Shown in pieces: positions 6,595 to 18,202 of a DNA stretch of 64,000 nt; the stretch's first letter is position 1, and each line of letters starts with the position of its first letter. The notes beneath the pieces are model-generated. The model had not been told where the DNA came from. It ran no database searches and saw only the letters and a list, made by a program, of their open reading frames with translations. Location of the stretch: positions 310,001 to 374,000 of the forward strand of contig NZ_JBFCVL010000004.1 in assembly GCF_040712075.1 (NCBI RefSeq), read 5' to 3'. This stretch comes from Fodinicurvata sp. EGI_FJ10296 (GTDB taxonomy: Bacteria > Pseudomonadota > Alphaproteobacteria > DSM-16000 > Inquilinaceae). The position numbers and the translations under genes were made by a program.

Positions 6595-7341
6595 CTACGA
6601 ATCCATAAGCGCCGGAAGATCGAGAATGCTGTTCAGAACGGCGTCGGCTTCCGCAGCCAGGTCATTGCGGCTGCTGGTACCGGTCAGAACACCGATCGCC
6701 AGACGGCATCCGGCAGCGCGTCCCATGCGGATATCATGGAGATTGTCGCCAACAACCATCACCGAGTCAGCCGGCAGCCCGGTTGCAGCCGTGAAGCCGT
6801 GCACCATGCCCGGGTTCGGCTTGCCGCCATGGCCGCTATCGTATCCGGCAATATAGGCGACCAGATCCGCGCCACAGCCGGCATCGGTCAGCATGCGGCG
6901 CGCGCCCTCCTCGCTGTCGCTGGTTGCAACACCAAGGATCAGGCCCCGGTCCCGAAGGCCGGTCATCAGTGCCCGAAGATCGCCGACCGGCGTGGCGTGG
7001 ATCGGTCCCAGTTCCTGAAATGTCCGATCAAGCCGCTCAATCAGGTCGGGCACCTGATCCGCCGGCATCTGCATGATACGGGCCCATGCCTCGGCTATCT
7101 CGCCCGTATGGGCCGCGGCCAGAAGGCTGCCTGACGCATAGCGGCCGGAGGCCGGATCAAGCCCCCCCGCCACGAGCAGCGTCTCGGCCAGTTCGGGGTC
7201 GCCCCGCGTTGCGGTCATGGCCGCGCCGGCATTCACCGGCGCCCATGAAGCGTGATAATCGAACAGCGTCCCATCCTTGTCGAACAGGATACCCTTGATG
7301 TCGGCGATCGGACCGGTTACGGCGGAGCCTGGCTCTGACAT
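6595..7341 (-). CDS. HAD-superfamily phosphatase (phosphoglycolate-phosphatase-like)
   Basis: A 248-residue HAD hydrolase expected to remove phosphate from a small metabolite. All four motifs are visible: DKDGT with nucleophile Asp21 and Asp23, the Ser/Thr of VATSDSE, the Lys of GGKPNPGM and VGDNLHDIRMG. A helical C1 cap lies between motifs I and II. The ATG at 7341 has AGGTG upstream. It starts six bases after the stop of the kinase gene, so it is the last gene of the transporter/methyltransferase/kinase operon and probably acts on a phosphorylated intermediate of that pathway. Its substrate is unknown. Confidence 0.88.
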   Translation of the reverse strand: MSEPGSAVTGPIADIKGILFDKDGTLFDYHASWAPVNAGAAMTATRGDPELAETLLVAGGLDPASGRYASGSLLAAAHTGEIAEAWARIMQMPADQVPDLIERLDRTFQELGPIHATPVGDLRALMTGLRDRGLILGVATSDSEEGARRMLTDAGCGADLVAYIAGYDSGHGGKPNPGMVHGFTAATGLPADSVMVVGDNLHDIRMGRAAGCRLAIGVLTGTSSRNDLAAEADAVLNSILDLPALMDS

Positions 7342-7347
7342 CGTCAC

Positions 7348-8268
7348 CTACGCTGCCTTGCGTACGGATTTCAGGCTTTCGGCAAAGATCGGCGACCGCA
7401 TGAGGCTCTTGCTGCGCTCGAACCGTTCGATGGAGTAGGCCCAGAAATCCTCCGCGGGGTTGTCGTTCGAGAACTGAATCAGCCCCCACAGCGTCCACAG
7501 CAGGTCACAGGCCGCCTTGTACAGAATCATCCGACCGACCTCGCTTTCCCTGGGCGCGCGGCCCAGATACGCCCGGAGCAGCTTCTGATCCTGTTCCGGC
7601 GTCAGTCCGGCTTCCACCGAAACATCGCCGACATCCCAGAACGGATCATTCATGCCGGAATATTCCCAGTCGACGATCCACATGCGCTTGCCGTCGTCCA
7701 GAAAGTTTTCGCAGAGCGGGTCGTTGTGGCAGGGCGCCAGCGGCACGGGATCGGCCTCGATCGCTTCGCGGATCGCGCGGGCCTCGGCAACGGCATCGTC
7801 ATAGCCCTCGGGCATGTCGATGGACGTGCCGGAAAGCACCCTGAGATACTCGTCGATCATGGAAAACAGCTCGAACCGGAACTGAAATTCCTGTCCCGAC
7901 CGATGCATCCTGCCCATGACGATCCCGGCCCGCTCGACGGCATCGTCATCATTTTGAAAGGCTTCCGGCGACATCGTGCGCCCCTTCAGGTGACGGATCA
8001 CCATCAGGCCATCATTCTCGTCGTTGAACAGAACCTCCGCCCCGACGCCGGCTGCCGCCGCCGCCCGGGTATTGTGCGCTTCGACCCGGCGGTCGATGTA
8101 CTCTTCGGTCCCTTTGCCGGGCATGCGCACGATCAGGTCTTCGCCATCATCGACGATTTGATAGACGATGTTTGTCTGCCCGCCGAGCCGTTTGGGCCGG
8201 AGCTGGGCTTCGGTCTTGCCCGATAGTTTCGGGATCCGGGCAATGGCCCGGCGCAGATCGTCATCCAT
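7348..8268 (-). CDS. Choline/ethanolamine-kinase-like phosphotransferase
   Basis: A 306-residue protein of the aminoglycoside-phosphotransferase/choline-kinase fold that should transfer phosphate from a nucleotide to a hydroxyl or amino alcohol. The catalytic block PCHNDPLCENFL (H-N-D...N) and the metal-binding block IVDWEYSGMNDPFWDVGD match the LicA/choline kinase pattern better than antibiotic kinases. The start at 8268 is chosen for MDDDLRRAI with GGAGAAAG upstream. It sits between a glycine-betaine-type methyltransferase and a HAD phosphatase downstream of a quaternary-amine ABC transporter, so an amino-alcohol substrate is a reasonable inference but not proven. Confidence 0.82.
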   Translation of the reverse strand: MDDDLRRAIARIPKLSGKTEAQLRPKRLGGQTNIVYQIVDDGEDLIVRMPGKGTEEYIDRRVEAHNTRAAAAAGVGAEVLFNDENDGLMVIRHLKGRTMSPEAFQNDDDAVERAGIVMGRMHRSGQEFQFRFELFSMIDEYLRVLSGTSIDMPEGYDDAVAEARAIREAIEADPVPLAPCHNDPLCENFLDDGKRMWIVDWEYSGMNDPFWDVGDVSVEAGLTPEQDQKLLRAYLGRAPRESEVGRMILYKAACDLLWTLWGLIQFSNDNPAEDFWAYSIERFERSKSLMRSPIFAESLKSVRKAA

Positions 8269-8317
8269 TGGTCTTTCTCCAGTTCCATTAGCGTCCTGGT
8301 GCAGGCGCAGGCCGGGA

Positions 8318-9121
8318 TCAGCCGCGCGGCTTTTCCGCCAGGAAGAAATCGAAGCTGAGCTTGCCTTCGGCCGCCATGCGCGCCCACTCCGCCCAGCTAT
8401 GGTGATTGACGCTGAGGGTTTCGGGATCGATGACACGCGCGAATTCGTCCATCTTCGATTCGAGTCGCTGAAGCACCTTCGCGCGGTGCATTGCGGCATG
8501 GACCTGCCAGTCGCGATGATCCACCAGATCGAAGCCGACGGCGGCGAGATGGGCTTTGTAATCGTCGGGGCTGGACAGCTTGGACATGTGATAGCGCGCT
8601 TCGACGGCAGTACGCTCGGCCGGCGTCAGCTTGTCGACCCAGAAGATGTGGTCGGAAATGACCACCCGGCCGCCGGGCTTGAGGACGCGGAACGCCTCGG
8701 CCAGCACCTTTTCCTTTTCGGCGGAATGAACCAGCGATTCCTGACACCACCAGACATCGAAGGTTCCGTCTTCATAGGGAAGATCATGGAAATCGGCGTA
8801 TTCGAAGCGCAGCTTGCCGCCGGTCGTCGGCTGATCCCTTTCCCGGCACCGCTTGAGCTGAACCTCGGAAATATTGGTCGCCACGACATCCACACCGAAG
8901 GTTTCGGCAAGGTACCGGGCGGTCGCCCCGTATCCGCAACCGACTTCCAGCACCGTCATTCCGGGCTTCAGCCCGACCGCTTCGGCCATGGTGCGTTTGG
9001 CGATCCAGGTGGCGTCTTCGATGGATTCATCGCCGGTCGGATAGACGCCGTAATGAATGTTCTCGCCCCAGACTTCGGCATAAAGGCGGTCGACGCCGGA
9101 ATTGTCGTAATGATCGGACAT
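8318..9121 (-). CDS. SAM-dependent N-methyltransferase, sarcosine/dimethylglycine-type
   Basis: A 267-residue class I methyltransferase. The SAM motif VLEVGCGYGATARYLAE (about residues 58-74) and motif II VVATNIS are clear. The N-terminal YAEVWGENIHYGVYPTGD and the post-motif CQESLVHSAEKEKVLAEAFRVLKPGG resemble sarcosine/dimethylglycine N-methyltransferases that make glycine betaine in halophiles, and phosphoethanolamine methyltransferases more distantly. It is encoded between the betaine-type permease (83 bases upstream) and the kinase (49 bases downstream). No glycine N-methyltransferase partner is present, so it may methylate an imported or phosphorylated amine instead. Class certain, substrate inferred. 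Confidence 0.82.
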   Translation of the reverse strand: MSDHYDNSGVDRLYAEVWGENIHYGVYPTGDESIEDATWIAKRTMAEAVGLKPGMTVLEVGCGYGATARYLAETFGVDVVATNISEVQLKRCRERDQPTTGGKLRFEYADFHDLPYEDGTFDVWWCQESLVHSAEKEKVLAEAFRVLKPGGRVVISDHIFWVDKLTPAERTAVEARYHMSKLSSPDDYKAHLAAVGFDLVDHRDWQVHAAMHRAKVLQRLESKMDEFARVIDPETLSVNHHSWAEWARMAAEGKLSFDFFLAEKPRG

Positions 9122-9204
9122 AGTGGTTCCTCGCTATCGATTGAGTCGATTGTTGACGGGCGCCAGCCGGACGCCGCGACGTCCGGCCCGGCGGCTCCGG
9201 TTTT

Positions 9205-11190
9205 TCAGGTATCGGCCAGGTTGGCGCGGCGGCGCGCCACGGCGGCCTTGATGAGGCGATCGGCGATGATGGCGATCGCGGCGACGCACAGGCCGGCCAC
9301 GAGTCCCTGACCGATATCGGCCTGGGTCAGGGCGATATAGACTTCCTGACCGAGATCGCGGGTACCGACCAGGGCGGTGATCACGAGCATCGACAAGGCC
9401 ATCATGATGGTCTGGTTGAGCCCGACCAGGATCTCCGGCAGCGCCAGCGGAAGCTGGATGCGCCAGAGAATCTGGCGCGGCGTGCAGCCCATCATCCGCG
9501 CACCTTCCAGCACCTCGGCAGACACGCCGCGAATGCCGTGGTCGGTATAGCGGATGGCCGGGGCAACGGCATAAGCCACGATCGCCACCAGTGCCGCGAA
9601 ATCGCCGACCTGGAACAGCATCACGACCGGGATCAGATAGACGAAGCTCGGCATCGTCTGGAGCGTGTCGACGACAACCGCCGTAACGCCGTGAACCCGT
9701 TCGCTCTTCGCCGACAAGACACCGACCGGAATGCCGATTGCCGCCGCGATGATGACGGCAACGCCGCAGAGATAGACGGCGACCATCGCCGGTTCCCAGA
9801 AGCCGGTCAGCGCGATGAACAGGCACAGCAGCGCCACCAGCGCGGCGAGACGCAGTCCGCCGATCGACCAACCAAGCGCCGCGAGTACGCCGACCACCCA
9901 GATCCAGGGCAGTGCAAGCAGCAGCCGTTTCGCCGGCAACAGGACGTAAATCAGCAGGAACGTCTTGATGGCGTTCAGAAAGTCGTAAAGCTCGACGTTG
10001 ATCCAGGTCATCACGGCGTCCCAGAAGGACGAGGTGCTGACTGTCAGGTAGTCGGGCGGGACGGCAAGCGCCGGCACGAACACCGCCAGCACAGTGAACG
10101 CCACGAGGACGGCGGGCAGGATCCAGCGCAGCGGCAGGTCGGCCTGCCGCGCGGCCCCGGTCGACAGCGCCTGACCGAACCGGTCAACGACGATGGCGAT
10201 AAGGGTTATGGCGACCCCGGCCTCAAGTCCGGCACCGATCTGCAGCCGGCGCAAGGCGGTCAGAACGTCGTAACCCAAGCCGCCAGCACCGATCATCGAG
10301 GCAATGATGACCATGTTCAGCGACAGCATCACCACCTGGTTCGCGCCGACCATCAGGCCGGAGCGCGCCGACGGCAGCAGAATGCGCCAGATCATCTGGA
10401 GCCGCGTGCAGCCAGCCATCGTGCCAAATTCCAGCGTTTCCGGCGGCACGCCGCGAAGGGCGACGATCGTCATCCGGACCATCGGCGGCGTGGCATAAAT
10501 CACGGTCGCAACCATGGCCGAAACAGGGCCGAAGCCGAACATCACCAGCACCGGCACCAGATAGGCGAACACCGGCACGGTCTGCATCAGGTCGAGAACC
10601 GGCGTCAGCGCCCGCTCGACGGACGGTTTCATGAAGGCAAGAATGCCCAGCACCAGCCCGAGGCCGACGCCGATGGGCACGGCAACCGCGATCGACGCAA
10701 AGGTCGTCATCGCGCTGACCCATTGGCCGAACAGCACCAGATAGGCCAGCGTCAGCGCCGTCAGGATTGTCAGGCGCCGACCGCCCAATTGCCATGCGGC
10801 GATCAGTGCGGCGATGGCAACACCAATCCAGCTGAAGGGCGGCAGTACAATGTCGACGGCACCGAACGGAATTTCCGCTCCACGAGCGAGGGCCGCCAGC
10901 GCCACGTCCAGCGGAATCGCGAGGATGGAGGAAAAGCCGCGCAGGACATCGCGCACGCTGACGCCGAGGATGGCGGCATCGCGCATCAGCCAGTCCATGC
11001 CGACGCTGACCCAGTCGGCAAGCGGGATCACCATCCACGCCGGTACCGTCATGACCCATTCGGCCTCGCCGGCGGCGACCCACAGCAGAGTGGCCAGCAC
11101 AATTGCGCCAACGGCGACCGCACCCGCACGCAGCCCATACCCGGCTGCTGCCTGACGCGAGGTGGACATGCCGGAGGTCGTATCAGCCAC
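9205..11190 (-). CDS. Glycine-betaine/proline-type ABC permease, two fused permease domains
   Basis: A 661-residue inner-membrane protein made of two ProW/OpuAB-like permease halves joined end to end, replacing the usual homodimer. Each half carries membrane segments, a coupling-loop region (LEFGTMAGCTRLQMIWRILLP near residue 255 and LEGARMMGCTPRQILWRIQLP near residue 570) and the LNMVIIA/LSMLVITALVG segment typical of the family. The N-terminal half has an extra membrane region. It overlaps the ATPase gene by eight bases, showing translational coupling. It would form the channel for a quaternary-amine osmolyte with the neighbouring ATPase and binding protein. Confidence 0.93.
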   Translation of the reverse strand: MADTTSGMSTSRQAAAGYGLRAGAVAVGAIVLATLLWVAAGEAEWVMTVPAWMVIPLADWVSVGMDWLMRDAAILGVSVRDVLRGFSSILAIPLDVALAALARGAEIPFGAVDIVLPPFSWIGVAIAALIAAWQLGGRRLTILTALTLAYLVLFGQWVSAMTTFASIAVAVPIGVGLGLVLGILAFMKPSVERALTPVLDLMQTVPVFAYLVPVLVMFGFGPVSAMVATVIYATPPMVRMTIVALRGVPPETLEFGTMAGCTRLQMIWRILLPSARSGLMVGANQVVMLSLNMVIIASMIGAGGLGYDVLTALRRLQIGAGLEAGVAITLIAIVVDRFGQALSTGAARQADLPLRWILPAVLVAFTVLAVFVPALAVPPDYLTVSTSSFWDAVMTWINVELYDFLNAIKTFLLIYVLLPAKRLLLALPWIWVVGVLAALGWSIGGLRLAALVALLCLFIALTGFWEPAMVAVYLCGVAVIIAAAIGIPVGVLSAKSERVHGVTAVVVDTLQTMPSFVYLIPVVMLFQVGDFAALVAIVAYAVAPAIRYTDHGIRGVSAEVLEGARMMGCTPRQILWRIQLPLALPEILVGLNQTIMMALSMLVITALVGTRDLGQEVYIALTQADIGQGLVAGLCVAAIAIIADRLIKAAVARRRANLADT

Positions 11191-12367
11191 GGTCGACCTC
11201 CAGACCTGCCAGAACCGAAATGACGTCTTCGCGCCTCAGCACGCCGACCGCTCGCCCGTCATCGGTGACTGTAACCGGGGCGTCGGCAGCGACGACCAGT
11301 CGCGCGATCGTTTCCAGCCGGGCATCGATATCGACGCTTTCGGCGCCTGCCCCATCCCGATTGGCTCCGGCCCTGCTCGCTCTGTCCGTGCGAAGGATCG
11401 ATCTTGCGGTCATGACCTTCGCGCGCGGCACGTCGCGGGTGAATTCCGACACATAGGTATCGGCCGGGGCACAGACGATCTCCTCCGGCGTGCCCACCTG
11501 AACGATGGCGCCATCCTTCATGATGGCGATACGGTCGGCGATACGGATGGCTTCGTCGAAATCGTGGGTAATGAAAATGATGGTCTTGTTCAGCACCTTC
11601 TGCAGGCGCATCAGTTCGTCCTGCATATCGCGCCGGATCAGCGGATCGAGCGCGCTGAACGGCTCGTCCAGAAACCAAAGTTCCGGCTCGACCGCCAGCG
11701 ATCGGGCGATGCCGACACGCTGCTTCTGACCGCCGGAAAGCTGGGCCGGCAGATCGGCTTCGCGCCCGCCCAGACCGACGAGATCGATCATCTCCATCGC
11801 CTTGGCGTCGCGCACGTCCCGGCGCATGCCCTGGATACTGAGCGGAAAGGCCACGTTTTCCTGCACGGTCAGGTGCGGCAACAGGGCGAAGTGCTGAAAC
11901 ACCATGCCCATCTTGTGACGCCTGATCTCGATGAGTTCCTTTTTCGGCAGACCCATCAGATCGCGCCCTTCGAGTTCCAGCGCACCGGCGCTCGGATCAA
12001 GAAGGCGCGACAGGCACCGGACCAGGGTCGACTTGCCCGAGCCGGATAACCCCATGATAACGAAGGTTTCGCCGGTCCGAATGGACAGGTCGACGTCGCG
12101 AACGGCAGCGAAGATCGACGGATCGTTATCGACGGCGCCGGCGATGTCGGCCGCGTTTCGTTGAGCGAACCCTTCGGCATCCTCGCCGAACAGCTTCCAC
12201 AATCCCCGGCAGGACAGTTTCACCGGACGGTCGCGGCGGACAGGCGTCTCGCCATCGGAAAACCCGGAATCGGACAGCCCGGAATCAGAGAGACTGGAAG
12301 CGGAGGGCCTGAGATCGGAGGGTTCCGGCGCTGTCGGGTGAGCGGTTGCTCCGGTATCGGCGGTCAT
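11183..12367 (-). CDS. Quaternary-amine ABC transporter ATP-binding protein with CBS-like tail
   Basis: A 394-residue ATPase of the ProV/OpuAA type. Walker A is GLSGSGKST, the signature LSGGQKQRVGIA, Walker B LWFLDEPFSALD, and the H-loop is IFITHDFDEA. The C-terminal 60 residues (VTVTDDGRAVGVLRREDVISVL) look like a single CBS motif; in OpuA, tandem CBS domains sense ionic strength, so osmotic gating is possible but here only one repeat is seen. The N-terminus has an unusual Ser/Asp-rich repeat (SLSDSGLSDSGFSDGE). The ATG at 12367 follows GAGGGG; the frame remains open further upstream, but that stretch overlaps the binding-protein gene. Confidence 0.93.
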   Translation of the reverse strand: MTADTGATAHPTAPEPSDLRPSASSLSDSGLSDSGFSDGETPVRRDRPVKLSCRGLWKLFGEDAEGFAQRNAADIAGAVDNDPSIFAAVRDVDLSIRTGETFVIMGLSGSGKSTLVRCLSRLLDPSAGALELEGRDLMGLPKKELIEIRRHKMGMVFQHFALLPHLTVQENVAFPLSIQGMRRDVRDAKAMEMIDLVGLGGREADLPAQLSGGQKQRVGIARSLAVEPELWFLDEPFSALDPLIRRDMQDELMRLQKVLNKTIIFITHDFDEAIRIADRIAIMKDGAIVQVGTPEEIVCAPADTYVSEFTRDVPRAKVMTARSILRTDRASRAGANRDGAGAESVDIDARLETIARLVVAADAPVTVTDDGRAVGVLRREDVISVLAGLEVDRG

Positions 12368-12476
12368 TGGGACCCCTCGGGGTTGTCCAGAAGAATAGCG
12401 GGACTCCGCCCGCTTCCCGAGTGCCGGAAAGCGGACGGAGCCAGGCCGTGGTCGGATACCAAACGGTGTCCGGAGA

Positions 12477-13451
12477 TCAGTTCGGAATCCAGGTCGACCA
12501 AACGTCTTCGTTCTCGGCGATCCATTCATCGACGACCATATCGAGCGGCCGGCCATCGAGATCGACGTAGCCGATCATGGTGCCGATCGTCTCGTTGTCG
12601 ATCGTGAAATTGGAGATCGCCTCGTAGGCTGCGGGCCATTCTTCCTGCAGACCGGGCCAGGCGGCTTTCTTGATCCAACCGCGCGGCTTGCCGCAGTCAT
12701 AGGCCATGTCCGGATTGACGCCCCAGCTTGGGTCTTCATAGCATTCCTCGGTGTATTCCGGGAATTCGATCCATTCGCCATCGAACTGGATCGGCGCCCA
12801 ATGCGGGGTATAGACCCATGCAATGATCGGGGTCTGGCGCTGATAGGCAGCCTGGATTTCGGCGAACAGCGCGGCGTCGGTTCCGGCGTGGATCACCTCG
12901 AACGGCAGATCCAGAGCCTCGATGCGCTCTTCGTCATAGCCGCCCCATGTAACCGCGCCGCCCAGGTACCGGCCATCAGGCTGCGTCTGAGGCGTGGCGA
13001 AGACGTCGCCGCAATCGCGAAGCGCTTCCCAATCCGGAAGGCCGGGGCACAGCTCCTCAACATAGCTCGGATACCACCATTCCTCGATGGCATGCATGCC
13101 GGTTTCGCCAAGATCGACGACGTCGCCGGCGGCAACCGCCTCTTCCAGCTGATCGCGGGCTGTCGTCTCCCAGATCTCCATGGCAACGTGCAGATCGCCC
13201 GAAGCCAGACCTGTGAACTGGGCGATATAGTCCGCCTGCACATACTCGACCGAATAGCCCATCTCCGCAAGGACCCGACCCATGAGGTTGGTCGTCAGGT
13301 TCTGGCCGGTCCAGTCATTCAGGGTCAGGCGAATGGTGCGATCGGATTCCGGGACGTCGGCAGACGCCGCCATCGGCGCGCCAGCGACTGTGGCCAAACC
13401 CACAAAAGCCCACAGACAATGGTCGCGGATGATCGATTTCGTTGTTTTCAT
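12477..13451 (-). CDS. Quaternary-amine ABC transporter substrate-binding protein (OpuAC/ProX-like)
   Basis: A 324-residue periplasmic binding protein, first gene of the minus-strand operon. A signal peptide is visible (basic start, hydrophobic core, cleavage near ASA-DVPES, about residue 32). The mature part has the OpuAC pattern: RLTLNDWTGQNLTTNLMGRVLAEMGY, then many Trp residues (EEWWYPSYVEE, AWVYTPHW) of the kind that build an aromatic cage around a trimethylammonium group. The start MKTTKS at 13451 follows AAAGGAC; an ATG eight codons upstream is possible. Ligand is inferred to be glycine betaine, choline or a related amine. Confidence 0.9.
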   Translation of the reverse strand: MKTTKSIIRDHCLWAFVGLATVAGAPMAASADVPESDRTIRLTLNDWTGQNLTTNLMGRVLAEMGYSVEYVQADYIAQFTGLASGDLHVAMEIWETTARDQLEEAVAAGDVVDLGETGMHAIEEWWYPSYVEELCPGLPDWEALRDCGDVFATPQTQPDGRYLGGAVTWGGYDEERIEALDLPFEVIHAGTDAALFAEIQAAYQRQTPIIAWVYTPHWAPIQFDGEWIEFPEYTEECYEDPSWGVNPDMAYDCGKPRGWIKKAAWPGLQEEWPAAYEAISNFTIDNETIGTMIGYVDLDGRPLDMVVDEWIAENEDVWSTWIPN

Positions 13452-13698
13452 TGCGTTGTCCTTTCGGTCATTCATAACAATAATCGTGATCGGCGGTCGG
13501 TCCGAACCCGATGTTTCAGAGCGGCAACAGCCATTATGTAAGCCAAAAGCCGTCGAATATGTAATTTCGAACCCCATATTCCCTGTGAATCGCAGCCCGG
13601 ATTTCTAACCGAGCCTGTGCGCTTCTTATTCCACCAAGAGGAATTCCGGCGGTCCGTTGCGGGGACATTGAGTTCACAGACCCACATATGTCAACATT

Positions 13699-13718
13699 TT
13701 TCCACGAATTTCCACAAA
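13699..13718. promoter_or_regulatory. Two 10-bp direct repeats upstream of the DeoR gene
   Basis: TTTCCACGAA is followed directly by TTTCCACAAA, a one-mismatch repeat at helical-turn spacing, 97 bases upstream of the DeoR start and 248 bases upstream of the divergent binding-protein gene. It could be an autoregulatory operator. Evidence is the repeat alone. Confidence 0.3.
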
Positions 13719-13814
13719 TCGGCTGGTCATGGGGCCGCCGCGCCGCTATATTTTCTGCACGTTTCCGGCGTATCGGTAAGACCGGCTTCGACGGCTTCTC
13801 ATGAGGTACGAAGA

Positions 13815-14582
13815 GTGCATCCCTCCACGCGGCATACCGCGATCCTTAAGCTTCTCGGCACCAACGGCACCTGCAGCGTGTCGGAATTCGTGCGCCAGCT
13901 GGGCGTTTCGGACGAGACCGTCCGCCGGGATATCAAGTCTCTGGCCAATCGCGGACTCATCGAACGCGTTCGCGGCGGGGCGATGTTGCCGGCGGTCGTG
14001 CAGGAACCCGACTTCCAGAATCGCATGTCGCACAACTCGGCCGAGAAGCGGGCGATCGCAAGGGAAGCCGCCGGCCTGATCGAGAACGGGGACTCGATTC
14101 TACTGGAGAATGGCAGCACAACCCTGTTCGTGGCGCGCGCACTCGCCCAGCACCAGGACCTGTTCGTCGTCAGCAATGGTCTGGAAATCGCGCGGACACT
14201 GCTCAACCACCGGAACAACAGGGTGTTTCTGGCCGGCGGCGCCGTGCGCGAGGACGACGGCGCCATTCTGGGTGCCGATGCCGTGGCGTTCGTTCAGCGG
14301 TTCCGGCTGCGCTATGTCTTTATTACGGTCGGCGCCATTCACCCCGAAGGCGGGTTGATGAATTTCTATTTCGACGAGACAGAGTTTGCGATCAACGCGC
14401 TGGCGCAGGCGTCGCATCTGGTCGTCGTGGCCGATCACTCGAAATTCCGGGCGCAGGCGCCGGTGCGTCTCTGCGACATCGACCGCATCGGCACCCTGAT
14501 CACCGACCGCCAGCCTCCCGAGCCCATGGTACAGCGGCTCAAGGAGGCGGAAGTCAGGCTGATCATCGCCAACCCGGAGTAA
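13815..14582 (+). CDS. DeoR-family transcriptional regulator
   Basis: A 255-residue repressor of the GlpR/DeoR type. The N-terminal helix-turn-helix is complete (CSVSEFVRQLGVSDETVRRDIKSLANRGLIERVRGGA). The C-terminal DeoRC sensor domain has DSILLENGSTTLFVARAL (family usually D-x-G-T-T-T), the VVSNGLEIARTL strand and VVVADHSKF, which bind a phosphosugar. The GTG start at 13815 is chosen because it gives the normal length and has GAGG eight bases upstream. It lies alone between the amine transporter operon (divergent) and the glucosylglycerol operon (convergent); a glycerol-phosphate-type effector would suit the latter, but this is speculation. Confidence 0.9.
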   Translation: MHPSTRHTAILKLLGTNGTCSVSEFVRQLGVSDETVRRDIKSLANRGLIERVRGGAMLPAVVQEPDFQNRMSHNSAEKRAIAREAAGLIENGDSILLENGSTTLFVARALAQHQDLFVVSNGLEIARTLLNHRNNRVFLAGGAVREDDGAILGADAVAFVQRFRLRYVFITVGAIHPEGGLMNFYFDETEFAINALAQASHLVVVADHSKFRAQAPVRLCDIDRIGTLITDRQPPEPMVQRLKEAEVRLIIANPE

Positions 14583-14792: not shown

Positions 14793-16349
14793 TCATTCGG
14801 CGGCGGTCCCGACCTCGGCCTCCGGCGGTGCGGCGACCCGCGCGCCGATGCGGCGGAACTGCGACAGGCTGTGTTCGGCCCAGTGGCTGATGTCGTATTT
14901 CTCGACGCTCTGGAACATCGCGCTCATGCGTCGCTTCTGCTCCGCTTCGTCCATGTCGAGGGCGGTTTCGATCCCTTCGACCAGGCTGTCGATGGAATAG
15001 GGATTGGTCATGACCGCCTCCTGCATCTCGACGGCCGCACCGGTGAATTCCGACAACACCAGCACGCCGGATTCGCCGCGATGGGCCGCCACGAATTCCT
15101 TGGCCACCAGATTGAGGCCGTCGCGAAGAGGCGTGGTCCAGCAGATATCGGCCAGCCGGTAATAGCAAAGCACCTCGTCGAACGGGACAGGCGTGGTGAA
15201 GGCCATGATCGGGCCCCAGCCCATGGTCGCGTATTTGCCGTGGATACGCCCGATCATCTGCTCGACCTGATGCTGGGCCTTTCGATACACGGCCATGTTC
15301 TCGTTCGCCGAAACAGAGGTGACCATGAGCTTGACCTTGCCGTGAAGGTCCGGCCGTCGCGACAGCAGCCGGTCATAGGCTTCCAGCATCTCCTTGGTAC
15401 CCTTGACATAATCGGTGCGGCCGATCGACATGATCAGTTTCTGTTCGCCGATTTCCGCACGCAGATTTCGCAGCCTCTCCCATGCGGCCGGCTTGGCCAA
15501 CTGTGCCTCGATCAATGACGGGTTGGTTCCGACCGGAAACGCGTCGATCAGGATTTGCCGGCCATTCGCCTGAATGTATTCCGGCATTTCCGGTTCCGAC
15601 AGGGCGCCGCCGACAGGGGAAAGCGAGTCCTCGACCCTGATCGTGGTCTCGATCTTCACGTCACACAGGCCTCGCGCGACCTGGACGAAATTCCGCGCAT
15701 ATCTTGGTATATGAAAACCGATCAGGTCGCACGCCAGCAGGCTTTCCACGATTTCCCGCCGCCAGGGCAGGATGTTGAAGATATCGGCGGACGGAAACGG
15801 CGTATGGTGGAAGAACGCAATGCGGGCATTGGGCTTGATCTGCCGGATAAAGTGCGGGCACAGCCACAGGTTATAGTCGTGCACCCAGATCAGCGCGTCG
15901 TCGGCCGCCTCCTCGCACGCCGCTTCGGCGAACAGCCGGTTGACCTCCTTGAAATTCTCCCAGTCCACCGGTTCGTAATTGAAATGATTGGGGAACGAGT
16001 GAAGGATCGGCCAGAAGGCCTCCTTGGAGGTCACATGATAGAACTGCTTCACCTGCTCGCCCGTCAGGGGCAGCCGGCTGACCTTGTAGGTGCCATAGGA
16101 ATCCGTCACCTCGATCCGCCGCTCGAAGCCGGGCTCGCGCTGCCGGTCCCTGACCTGCTTCCAGGCCACCCAGCTTCCGCGATTGACGGCGCCGAAAAAG
16201 CTCTTGAGCGTCGGAACGATTCCGTTGGGGCTGGCATTTTCGCGATAGGTCACCTTGCCGTCGACGACGACCTCGTCATAGGGCTGGCGGTGATACACGA
16301 TCACCAGATCGGATTTGCCGTTTTCGTCGATCTCGGTCCCGCTGACCAT
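14793..16349 (-). CDS. ggpS: Glucosylglycerol-phosphate synthase
   Basis: A 518-residue GT20 glycosyltransferase that joins glucose from ADP-glucose (or another NDP-glucose) to glycerol 3-phosphate. It is related to trehalose-6-phosphate synthase, but the N-terminal block LVIVYHRQPYDEVV...NASPNGIVPTLKSFF, then EQVKQFYHVTSKEAFWPILHS, matches cyanobacterial GgpS rather than OtsA. The later blocks IAFFHHTPFPSADIFNILPW, SIGRTDYVKGTKEMLEAYD and PLRDGLNLVAKEFVA also fit. It begins four bases after the phosphatase stop with a GGAGGA site inside the phosphatase end, so the two are coupled. Automatic pipelines may call it otsA. Confidence 0.9.
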   Translation of the reverse strand: MVSGTEIDENGKSDLVIVYHRQPYDEVVVDGKVTYRENASPNGIVPTLKSFFGAVNRGSWVAWKQVRDRQREPGFERRIEVTDSYGTYKVSRLPLTGEQVKQFYHVTSKEAFWPILHSFPNHFNYEPVDWENFKEVNRLFAEAACEEAADDALIWVHDYNLWLCPHFIRQIKPNARIAFFHHTPFPSADIFNILPWRREIVESLLACDLIGFHIPRYARNFVQVARGLCDVKIETTIRVEDSLSPVGGALSEPEMPEYIQANGRQILIDAFPVGTNPSLIEAQLAKPAAWERLRNLRAEIGEQKLIMSIGRTDYVKGTKEMLEAYDRLLSRRPDLHGKVKLMVTSVSANENMAVYRKAQHQVEQMIGRIHGKYATMGWGPIMAFTTPVPFDEVLCYYRLADICWTTPLRDGLNLVAKEFVAAHRGESGVLVLSEFTGAAVEMQEAVMTNPYSIDSLVEGIETALDMDEAEQKRRMSAMFQSVEKYDISHWAEHSLSQFRRIGARVAAPPEAEVGTAAE

Positions 16350-16353
16350 GGGT

Positions 16354-17088
16354 TCAGTCCTCCAGCTTGAAGTCGAAATGACGGATCGCGTCGGCAATAC
16401 CCGCACAGCCCGGTTCGGGGCTGAACCAGGTCTGCGGCAATCGGTGCAATTCGGCCTGCAATCTCGGTTCGGCGTTACCGACGGCAACGCCCTTCAGTCC
16501 TGTCTCGAACAGCGACAGATCGTTCATGGTGTCGCCCGCCACGAGGCATCGCGCTGCATCAAGTTGCAGCGCATCGATGAAATTCAGCAGGGTCGGCCCC
16601 TTGGACACACCCGGCGGCAGGACATCGAAATACATGTCCGCGGATGTCAGCCACTGGAGCCCGGCCGCCTCGACCTTCGCCATGGCCTCCGGACGTAATG
16701 TCTGCGGGTCATAGTAATAGGACATCCGCCGCTCGAAGGTGCCGGGTTGAGGTTTCAGGCCCGGCTCGTCACGGAGCATTTCCTTGACCCGTTCGCCGGA
16801 TTCCGCCCAGACACGGGAGATGGGATCCTGAACCGCGGCAATCGGCTCGAAGGTATCGCCACGAACGATCGTGGTACCGACATCGCCGATCACGTAGTCC
16901 GGGACCGGTACGTCGCCTTCAGCTTTCAGCGTATCGATAAACCCCAGATCCCGGCCGGTGACGAAGACGATCATGATCTGCCGGCGGTGGCGCGTCAGCA
17001 TGTCGTAAAGCGAGCGCCGCTGGTCCGCACTGCCGCCAAGAAACGTTCCGTCCAGGTCTGTAGCGAGAATCAATCGATGATCGCACAT
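16354..17088 (-). CDS. HAD-IIB phosphatase, probable glucosylglycerol-phosphate phosphatase
   Basis: A 244-residue HAD-IIB hydrolase of the sucrose-phosphatase/MPGP group. Motif I is DLDGTFLG, motif II the Thr of VFVTGRD, motif III Lys in PPGVSKGPTLLNFI and motif IV AGDTMNDLSLF. Placed immediately before the GgpS-type synthase and translationally coupled to it, it is the obvious candidate to remove the phosphate from glucosylglycerol phosphate. In gammaproteobacterial GgpPS proteins a HAD phosphatase domain is fused to the synthase, which supports this reading. The ATG at 17088 gives MCDHRLILATDLDG, the normal start. Dephosphorylation of another sugar phosphate cannot be excluded. Confidence 0.85.
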   Translation of the reverse strand: MCDHRLILATDLDGTFLGGSADQRRSLYDMLTRHRRQIMIVFVTGRDLGFIDTLKAEGDVPVPDYVIGDVGTTIVRGDTFEPIAAVQDPISRVWAESGERVKEMLRDEPGLKPQPGTFERRMSYYYDPQTLRPEAMAKVEAAGLQWLTSADMYFDVLPPGVSKGPTLLNFIDALQLDAARCLVAGDTMNDLSLFETGLKGVAVGNAEPRLQAELHRLPQTWFSPEPGCAGIADAIRHFDFKLED

Positions 17089-17149
17089 AGGCGTGTTCCG
17101 ACTTTCGTTGGGGATGATGTGCCGATCCGGCCGGTCGCTGAAAGCGGCC

Positions 17150-18202
17150 TCAGGTAGAATGGCCCGAACGGACGACGACCTGCTCCAGCGAGGGCGCCTC
17201 ACCGCGCATCGGGCGCTCCATCAGCCCCTCGACCACGACGGACAGGGGCACATTCTCGTGAAGCAGGGCGTTTACCGCCTCGCAGATCGGCATCGCCACG
17301 CCCAGTTGCCTTGCGGCCGTCACCACGCTGGCGGCATTGTAGGCGCCCTCGACGACCGAATTCCGATTGCCCAGCAGGTCGTCGGCTTGCTGCCCCTGCC
17401 CGAGCGCCCGGCCGAACGAAAAGTTGCGGCTTTGCGTGCTGGAGCAGGTGAGCGTCAGATCGCCCAGACCGGCGAGACCCAGCAGTGTCTCGGCCCTGCC
17501 GCCGCGCGCAACGGCGAAACGCAGGATTTCAGCCAGCCCCCGCGTGATCAATGCCGCTCGGGTGTTCGACCCGAAACCGAGCCCGTCGGCGATCCCGCAG
17601 GCGATGGCGATGACGTTCTTGGCCGCGCCCCCCACCTCGGTGCCGACGATGTCGCCGCTCAAGTAGGGGCGGAAATGCAGTGACGCCACGGCTTGCAGCA
17701 ACGCTCCGCCCAATCCGTCGGATCGCGCCTCGTCCTCTGCCACCGCCAAGGTGATGGCCGTGGGCAGATTGTCGGCAACCTCGGCCGCGAAGGTCGGCCC
17801 TGACAGAACGGCAACCGGGTGATCCGGCAACTCTGCCTGAACCACCTCGCCCATCAGGGCGCCGGTTCCGGTTTCGATGCCCTTTGCGCAGACGATGATC
17901 GGCGCCCTCTTCTTCAGGTGAGGGGCGGCGTCCCGGCAGGTCGACCTGACGAATTGCGACGGCACCACCAGCAGGATCAGATCACAAGCGGCGAGATCGG
18001 CCATTTCGCTGGTGGCCCGGATCGATGGATCGAGCCGAATGCCGGGCAGAAAAACCTGGTTCTCGTGGAGCGAGTTTATCTGCTCCGCCGCTTCGGTCTC
18101 ACGAACCCAGAGAGTGACGGATCGGCCGGCGCGATGCATCGCGGTAGACAGGGCAGTTCCCCAGGCGCCACCGCCAATGATCCCGGCGTTGGTAAGATCC
18201 AT
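17150..18202 (-). CDS. gpsA: Glycerol-3-phosphate dehydrogenase [NAD(P)+]
   Basis: Reduces dihydroxyacetone phosphate to sn-glycerol 3-phosphate in the cytosol. The 350-residue protein has the N-terminal dinucleotide fold (IIGGGAWGTALSTAMHRAG), the active-site stretch VGTEVGGAAKNVIAIACGIADGLG and the substrate loop NTRAALITRGLAEI. The start at 18202 is preceded by AAGGGAG. As first gene of the operon with the HAD phosphatase and ggpS it would supply the glycerol 3-phosphate acceptor for glucosylglycerol. A second, housekeeping gpsA may exist elsewhere in the genome; whether this one is dedicated is inference. Confidence 0.95.
   Translation of the reverse strand: MDLTNAGIIGGGAWGTALSTAMHRAGRSVTLWVRETEAAEQINSLHENQVFLPGIRLDPSIRATSEMADLAACDLILLVVPSQFVRSTCRDAAPHLKKRAPIIVCAKGIETGTGALMGEVVQAELPDHPVAVLSGPTFAAEVADNLPTAITLAVAEDEARSDGLGGALLQAVASLHFRPYLSGDIVGTEVGGAAKNVIAIACGIADGLGFGSNTRAALITRGLAEILRFAVARGGRAETLLGLAGLGDLTLTCSSTQSRNFSFGRALGQGQQADDLLGNRNSVVEGAYNAASVVTAARQLGVAMPICEAVNALLHENVPLSVVVEGLMERPMRGEAPSLEQVVVRSGHST

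Follow-up and report, generated by a model that had tools for sequence, protein, structure and literature searches.

What does an operon do in which an importer of the betaine type is followed by a methyltransferase, a choline-kinase-like enzyme and a phosphatase? The question is raised by six consecutive genes on the minus strand (6595-13451) of a 64,000-nucleotide stretch of the Fodinicurvata sp. EGI_FJ10296 genome (contig NZ_JBFCVL010000004.1, positions 310,001 to 374,000), hereafter the window. From 5' to 3' along the operon, they encode a binding protein, an ATPase, a fused permease, a methyltransferase (MT), a choline/ethanolamine-kinase-like phosphotransferase (KIN) and a phosphatase of the HAD family (HAD), with intergenic gaps of 109, -8, 83, 49 and 0 bases; this spacing suggests that the six genes are co-transcribed. 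The same six genes, coordinates and range of gaps were given in a preliminary description of this DNA and are borne out by gene calls and family searches, and a strong family or structure match for every operon protein leaves the coding calls in no doubt. We tentatively propose that the operon imports an N-methylated amino alcohol, phosphorylates, methylates and then dephosphorylates it, yielding choline or a close analogue. We infer the substrates, the order of steps, the direction and the product, and our confidence in this proposal stops a little short of the halfway mark.

The MT-KIN-HAD cassette

Using >50% identity to the window MT as the definition of presence, we found MT in nine genomes (the window genome included), with KIN directly after it on the same strand in 9/9. 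HAD follows KIN, in the same order and on the same strand, in six of the nine, namely the window, Salinisphaera hydrothermalis and four spirochaete genomes. Of the other three, two are spirochaete contigs that break off behind MT-KIN or within KIN, while the third is a Geminicoccaceae genome (L004) without HAD; HAD is thus directly after KIN in 6/7 loci where the next gene is visible. The MT-KIN pairing is not due to chance, because it recurs in eight other genomes, five of which have MT-KIN-HAD. The cassette is spread over Alphaproteobacteria, Gammaproteobacteria and Spirochaetota and, judged from these gene neighborhoods, is conserved as a unit. Neighboring copies of all three genes turn up in salt-lake and marine bacteria that are not related to one another, so a common pathway for the three is very probable. 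A genome search with MT was positive in 6/46 genomes of the spirochaete order, and MT was absent from 16 other sampled genomes of the host's order and 384 others of its class, from 84 other genomes of the Salinisphaera order and from 30 others of the Geminicoccaceae order. The cassette kinases of the genome-scan sample and the window (5/5) fall in one clade (support 99/80), whose sister is a Rubrobacter kinase. The gene after the Salinisphaera cassette encodes a relative of choline-binding proteins (TIGR03414, E 1.4e-75), which independently connects the cassette with a choline-type compound.

MT (8318..9121, minus strand) is a SAM (S-adenosylmethionine)-dependent methyltransferase, putatively acting on the nitrogen of an amine or phosphoamine, in a clade beside the sarcosine/dimethylglycine methyltransferases (SDMTs). 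SDMT is its nearest NCBIfam model (NF041675, E 3.5e-44), at 151.8 bits versus a 550-bit cut-off; the host's own SDMT, which is linked to a glycine/sarcosine methyltransferase (GSMT), also scores under this cut-off (220.5 bits). In the tree, the cassette MTs do not group with the GSMT-linked SDMTs and form a clade of their own (support 100/99, branch length 1.36), and no GSMT is found in the operon. The AlphaFold2 model of MT (pLDDT 89.5) is nearest to SDMT (2O57, Z 31.1), followed by two phosphoethanolamine N-methyltransferases (PMTs), AtPMT1 of plants (Z 29.1) and PfPMT (Z 28.7); with Z of 28-31, the fold comparison did not separate SDMT, PMT and other class I methyltransferases. The catalytic pair Tyr19/His132 of PfPMT corresponds to Y5/H132 in 9/9 cassette MTs, and is not discriminating, being present in SDMTs too. 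Basic residues found only in the cassette enzymes, R203 (8/9), H208 and R213, are located in the C-terminal part, at positions that mostly hold other residues in SDMTs, and would suit an anionic substrate. As these families are filed, MT is neither a PMT nor an SDMT, and it is plausible that its substrate is phosphorylated.

Two spirochaete genomes carry an extra, solo MT with neither KIN nor HAD (L121:6479-7342 and L122:2661-3524). Both solo copies have lost Tyr5 and Tyr14, and that of L122 has also lost His132; this loss of catalytic residues suggests that MT is retained only alongside its KIN and HAD partners. Both are flanked by the same MFS and CbiX/CysG-like neighbors as the full cassette of L017.

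KIN (7348..8268, minus strand) matches Pfam Choline_kinase above the gathering score (E 5e-20). Its closest solved structure is 3DXQ, a member of the choline/ethanolamine kinase family from Mesorhizobium (E 7e-103, 347 bits), followed by the LicA choline kinase 4R77 (E 4e-28, 102 bits). The HxD...N and DWE motifs and a W/W/Y cage are present; in the alignment of the KIN1 clade, to which KIN belongs, the catalytic Asp and Asn, E202, E219, W258, W261 and Y278 are found in 84/84 sequences and the His in 83/84. We take W258, W261 and Y278 to correspond to the aromatic residues with which eukaryotic choline kinase binds choline. KIN stands on the choline-kinase branch, as first described; an aminoglycoside phosphotransferase was considered and rejected (APH(6), E 2e-4, versus 3DXQ, E 7e-103). 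A literature search yielded no report of a substrate for 3DXQ or the KIN clade.

HAD (6595..7347, minus strand; its start may be the ATG at 7341) was assigned by Pfam, and all four motifs of an active HAD enzyme are present in the alignment (DKDGT, TSD, GKP and GDNxHD). The AlphaFold2 model (pLDDT 91.4) is nearest to the AlnB phosphatase 4EX7, and the fold search returned AlnB along with generic sugar or small-phosphate phosphatases, a result that is uninformative for the substrate.

Importer, regulator and kinase-demethylase clusters

The periplasmic binding protein (12477..13451, minus strand) is of the TmoX/OpuAC type, with a Pfam OpuAC match at E 1e-45 and TmoX (4XZ6, E 2e-76) as the best PDB match. 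The ATPase (11183..12367, minus strand) is of the ProV/ChoV type, above the cut-off of TIGR01186 proV (329.7 bits, E 2e-98), and the fused, double-domain permease (9205..11190, minus strand) has two BPD_transp_1 stretches in Pfam and likewise matches TIGR03416 in two stretches, above the cut-off. Ruegeria TmoX binds trimethylamine N-oxide (TMAO) via Trp55, Trp102, Phe106, Glu131, Trp177, Phe220 and Trp222 (PMC8918994). At TmoX positions 55, 102, 106, 131, 177, 220 and 222, the window protein has W, W, A, E, W, W and Y, so that the pocket alignment does not reproduce the TMAO pocket, and 46/46 kinase-linked relatives have W, W, G or A, E, W, W and Y. By alignment, the window protein and its 46 relatives share one pocket type, unlike that of TmoX and predicted to be roomier at position 106, where Ala or Gly points to a ligand other than TMAO. 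The aromatic cage is kept, in agreement with the betaine-type importer proposed initially. Import of TMAO for TMAO catabolism was rejected, given that the pocket differs and the operon is without Tdm.

To place the kinase in its wider setting, we use 80 loci from a genome scan with KIN, for which the neighbors were mapped. One or two fusions of ~810 aa, joining an FAD oxidoreductase of the dimethylglycine/sarcosine dehydrogenase type (DMGDH) to GcvT, are encoded at 66/80 loci. The TmoX-type transporter is found at 46, a second kinase paralog (KIN2) at 45, a DeoR regulator at 44, an inositol-monophosphatase-family enzyme at 25 and a window-type HAD at 4. An example is L041:5649-18233, a cluster of genes for DeoR, a TmoX-like ABC importer, a pair of choline-kinase-like paralogs, a pair of DMGDH/GcvT-fusion demethylases and a phosphatase; another 65 loci are similar to it. 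From its gene content, this conserved cluster looks demethylating, hence catabolic, and possibly demethylates a phospho-amine. No description of the kinase-demethylase cluster was found in the open-licence literature; the transporter-DeoR cluster is widespread and apparently undescribed. Because KIN2 has E in place of W258 and N in place of E219, its substrate probably differs from that of KIN1. The adjacency of the KIN family to N-demethylase-like genes ties phosphorylation to N-methyl chemistry, a link that had been suggested from the window operon and now recurs elsewhere. Moreover, the pocket type common to the demethylating clusters and the window operon suggests that one amine is the import substrate of both.

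MT (by the same identity threshold) is present at 4/80 loci, directly before KIN in each; none of the four has a demethylase or the TmoX-type transporter, and MT and a demethylase do not occur together at any of the 80. The preliminary description had looked to co-occurrence of the last three genes with the transporter as a check on its proposal, and here the outcome was negative: transporter and MT cassette are never together among the 80 kinase loci. Its claim of a single pathway is supported for the last three genes, which form a unit across two phyla, but not for the six-gene set, a combination seen in no other sampled genome and, on present sampling, unique to the window genome. By comparison with relatives, the window operon is a junction of two conserved modules, one comprising transporter and DeoR, the other MT-KIN-HAD. 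The junction itself (9122..9204, minus strand) is the gap between permease and MT, where relatives have KIN2; within it is a strong GC hairpin that lacks a T tail (-34.3 kcal/mol, z -1.55), which could weaken transcription (attenuation) or serve as a processing site.

Divergent from the operon is a gene for a DeoR/GlpR-family regulator (13617..14582, plus strand; the true start is probably further in, at ~13800). It is conserved with the transporter in relatives and is 46-55% identical to the DeoR proteins encoded beside this type of transporter in L005, L007, L050 and L053. DeoR-family repressors generally sense phosphorylated metabolites, and we consider a phosphorylated amine the probable ligand. 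This regulator and the demethylating sister cluster were both missed in the preliminary description, which was incomplete in this respect. More distant kinases of the KIN family are found on plasmids, beside ethanolamine ammonia-lyase (EutBC), DeoR and a phosphatase; ethanolamine ammonia-lyase was found only with these kinases and not near KIN1 clusters. A second methyltransferase of ~220 aa (MT2) lies near KIN1 at L007:4593-5258 and in L053, L005, L019, L050, L084 and L003; the MT2-bearing loci are those most like the window, and MT2 never occurs with DMG1 in the 80 loci. The Rubrobacter sister kinase (L003:4334-7912) adjoins an amino-acid permease and is near an MT2 gene. It seems that a methyltransferase was paired with the KIN family twice.

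Both the binding protein and MT are absent from 16 other genomes of the host family, and for this reason the operon was probably acquired. Adjoining it in the window (14793-18202) are genes for a glucosylglycerol-phosphate synthase (above the model cut-off), a sucrose-phosphatase-type HAD and GpsA (identified by sequence), a putative glucosylglycerol osmolyte locus. A GT20 gene (trehalose/glucosylglycerol-phosphate synthase family; L119:3-1133) is located ~6.5 kb from a spirochaete cassette, much as the window operon has GgpS in its vicinity, which may be a coincidence.

Proposed pathway and alternatives

In the proposed pathway, the compound entering through the importer would be a small amino alcohol that bears N-methyl groups, with mono- or dimethylethanolamine the most likely, and KIN would place a phosphate on its hydroxyl. 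With S-adenosylmethionine as methyl donor, MT would then take the phosphorylated amine as far as the quaternary form, after which HAD would remove the phosphate, giving choline or a close analogue. Choline could be converted to glycine betaine by the host's BetA, encoded elsewhere, or enter lipids, and the adjacent DeoR would sense the phosphorylated amine. The demethylating cluster appears to have a methylating counterpart in the window operon, with importer pocket, regulator type and kinase family in common and MT in place of the demethylases; the window-type phosphatase family is present in part of the demethylating relatives. A broader scenario, which we regard as possible but doubtful, is that a phosphate-handle pathway for osmolytes of the choline type arose in bacteria in its own right, in which one kinase family and phosphatases are used both ways, with demethylases to consume and with an SDMT-related methyltransferase to build. 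The window operon would then be a hybrid, its importer and regulator coming from the consuming version and its enzymes from the building version.

Several observations weigh against the proposed pathway. The phosphobase-binding residues of PMT are Tyr160, Tyr175, Arg179, Tyr181 and Lys247 (PMC6705855); they are not conserved in MT, which has H158, E174, H178, S180 and W246 in three MAFFT modes (the PfPMT reference sequence matches 3UJ6 letter for letter). An alternative profile alignment pairs only PMT Arg179, with MT Arg176, and SDMTs carry the Arg176 equivalent too; by these residues, MT is not a PMT. HAD family membership tells little about the substrate, the change to Ala or Gly at pocket position 106 sets the ligand apart from TMAO but names none, and L004 has no adjacent HAD. 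BetA is above the cut-off in the window host and Salinisphaera, with weaker relatives in the Geminicoccaceae genome and one spirochaete, and there is no BetA match at E 1e-60 in 5/6 spirochaete hosts (draft genomes). Finally, the host already has GSMT and SDMT, side by side with MetK (read from sequence) on contig C3, as well as BetA on C6, so that the operon is not the sole route to glycine betaine; the GSMT-SDMT pair also occurs in two further cassette hosts. With GSMT-SDMT-MetK on C3, the idea that the host has lost its canonical betaine route was rejected. The osmolyte-making role in the preliminary description is therefore unproven. Its phosphobase-like reading is favored by the enzyme triplet being a unit and by the N-methyl link, and is weakened by the lack of the phosphate-binding residues of eukaryotic PMT and of a BetA match in most spirochaetes.

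The other readings differ in which part of the pathway they retain. If the compound were another hydroxylated amine (carnitine-like, an N-oxide or N-hydroxy), the kinase-methyltransferase-phosphatase chemistry would stand and the product would not be choline. The altered pocket of a TMAO-type transporter fits this, as does the best curated NCBIfam match of KIN, GntI, an N-oxide kinase of guanitoxin synthesis (NF041256, E 2e-47), although its 161.7 bits are below the 357-bit cut-off; with choline-kinase-type residues invariant in 84/84 relatives and a choline-type binding protein after the Salinisphaera cassette, we consider this unlikely. It is improbable that the enzymes form a sensing switch, in which a phospho-amine made by KIN releases the DeoR repressor, HAD resets the system and MT methylates the free amine. 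The metabolites that DeoR-family repressors are known to sense, and the position of DeoR beside transporter and kinase (44/80 loci) and beside the plasmid kinase/phosphatase/EutBC clusters, agree with such a switch, but no DeoR adjoins MT-KIN-HAD in Salinisphaera and the spirochaetes, where kinase and phosphatase must therefore do something else.

Slightly more improbable still is that MT acts as an additional sarcosine/dimethylglycine methyltransferase to supplement glycine betaine, with KIN and HAD serving choline salvage and only regulation in common. SDMT is indeed the nearest curated model and structure, and the Tyr/His pair is common to both; nevertheless, MT belongs to a separate clade (100/99), true GSMT-SDMT operons coexist in three hosts, and in the loci seen MT is always beside KIN and never beside GSMT. 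The relationship of KIN to LicA (4R77) would allow phosphocholine to be what the operon finally makes, to decorate lipids or surfaces, with HAD only trimming the excess. The position of HAD directly after KIN in 6/7 readable loci argues against this, as does the fact that inspection of neighbors brought up no CDP-choline or LicD-type gene, and we rank it as the least probable.

Significance and comparison with known systems

Should the proposed pathway hold true, bacteria would have an equivalent of the phosphobase route of plants and parasites, in hosts largely from saline settings; no description of a bacterial phosphobase route was found in the open-licence literature. The pathway would, in addition, offer a first point of entry to the widespread cluster of choline-kinase-like enzymes and demethylases (66/80 kinase loci), often with a TMAO-type importer, with consequences for the marine turnover of choline-type compounds. 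Having a kinase-demethylase cluster and a kinase-methyltransferase operon with a common transporter pocket makes the phosphate-handle idea directly testable.

Five known systems invite comparison. The phosphobase pathway of plants, nematodes and Plasmodium (ethanolamine kinase, PMT and phosphatase) has the same order of chemical steps as that proposed for the window, and MT shares its PMT-like fold and the Tyr19/His132 pair; however, MT is nearer to SDMT (Z 31.1) and without the phosphobase-binding residues, and the three window enzymes are in an operon with an ABC importer. GSMT/SDMT synthesis of glycine betaine resembles the window in that SDMT is nearest to MT by sequence and fold, whereas the window has a kinase and a phosphatase instead of a GSMT partner, and the GSMT-SDMT-MetK operon of the host is separate. 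The TmoXWV importer of TMAO is of the same family in binding protein, ATPase and permease, with Glu131 and 3/4 box Trp kept; it differs in that the window has Phe106->Ala (G/A being fixed in the 46 relatives), Phe220->Trp and Trp222->Tyr, and a fused permease followed by amine enzymes rather than Tdm. KIN is by sequence a member of the LicA/choline kinase family and related to 3DXQ, with catalytic and aromatic residues kept, but its setting is the methylation or demethylation of N-methyl compounds and not lic1. In the MthK/MthB/MthC/MthA system of Eubacterium limosum, choline is likewise phosphorylated ahead of methyl-group handling, and MthK/MthB demethylate phosphocholine but not choline (PMC12155760). 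That system uses corrinoid demethylation rather than SAM methylation, with a kinase and a methyltransferase unrelated to those of the window; it is nevertheless a precedent for a phosphate handle in choline N-methyl chemistry.

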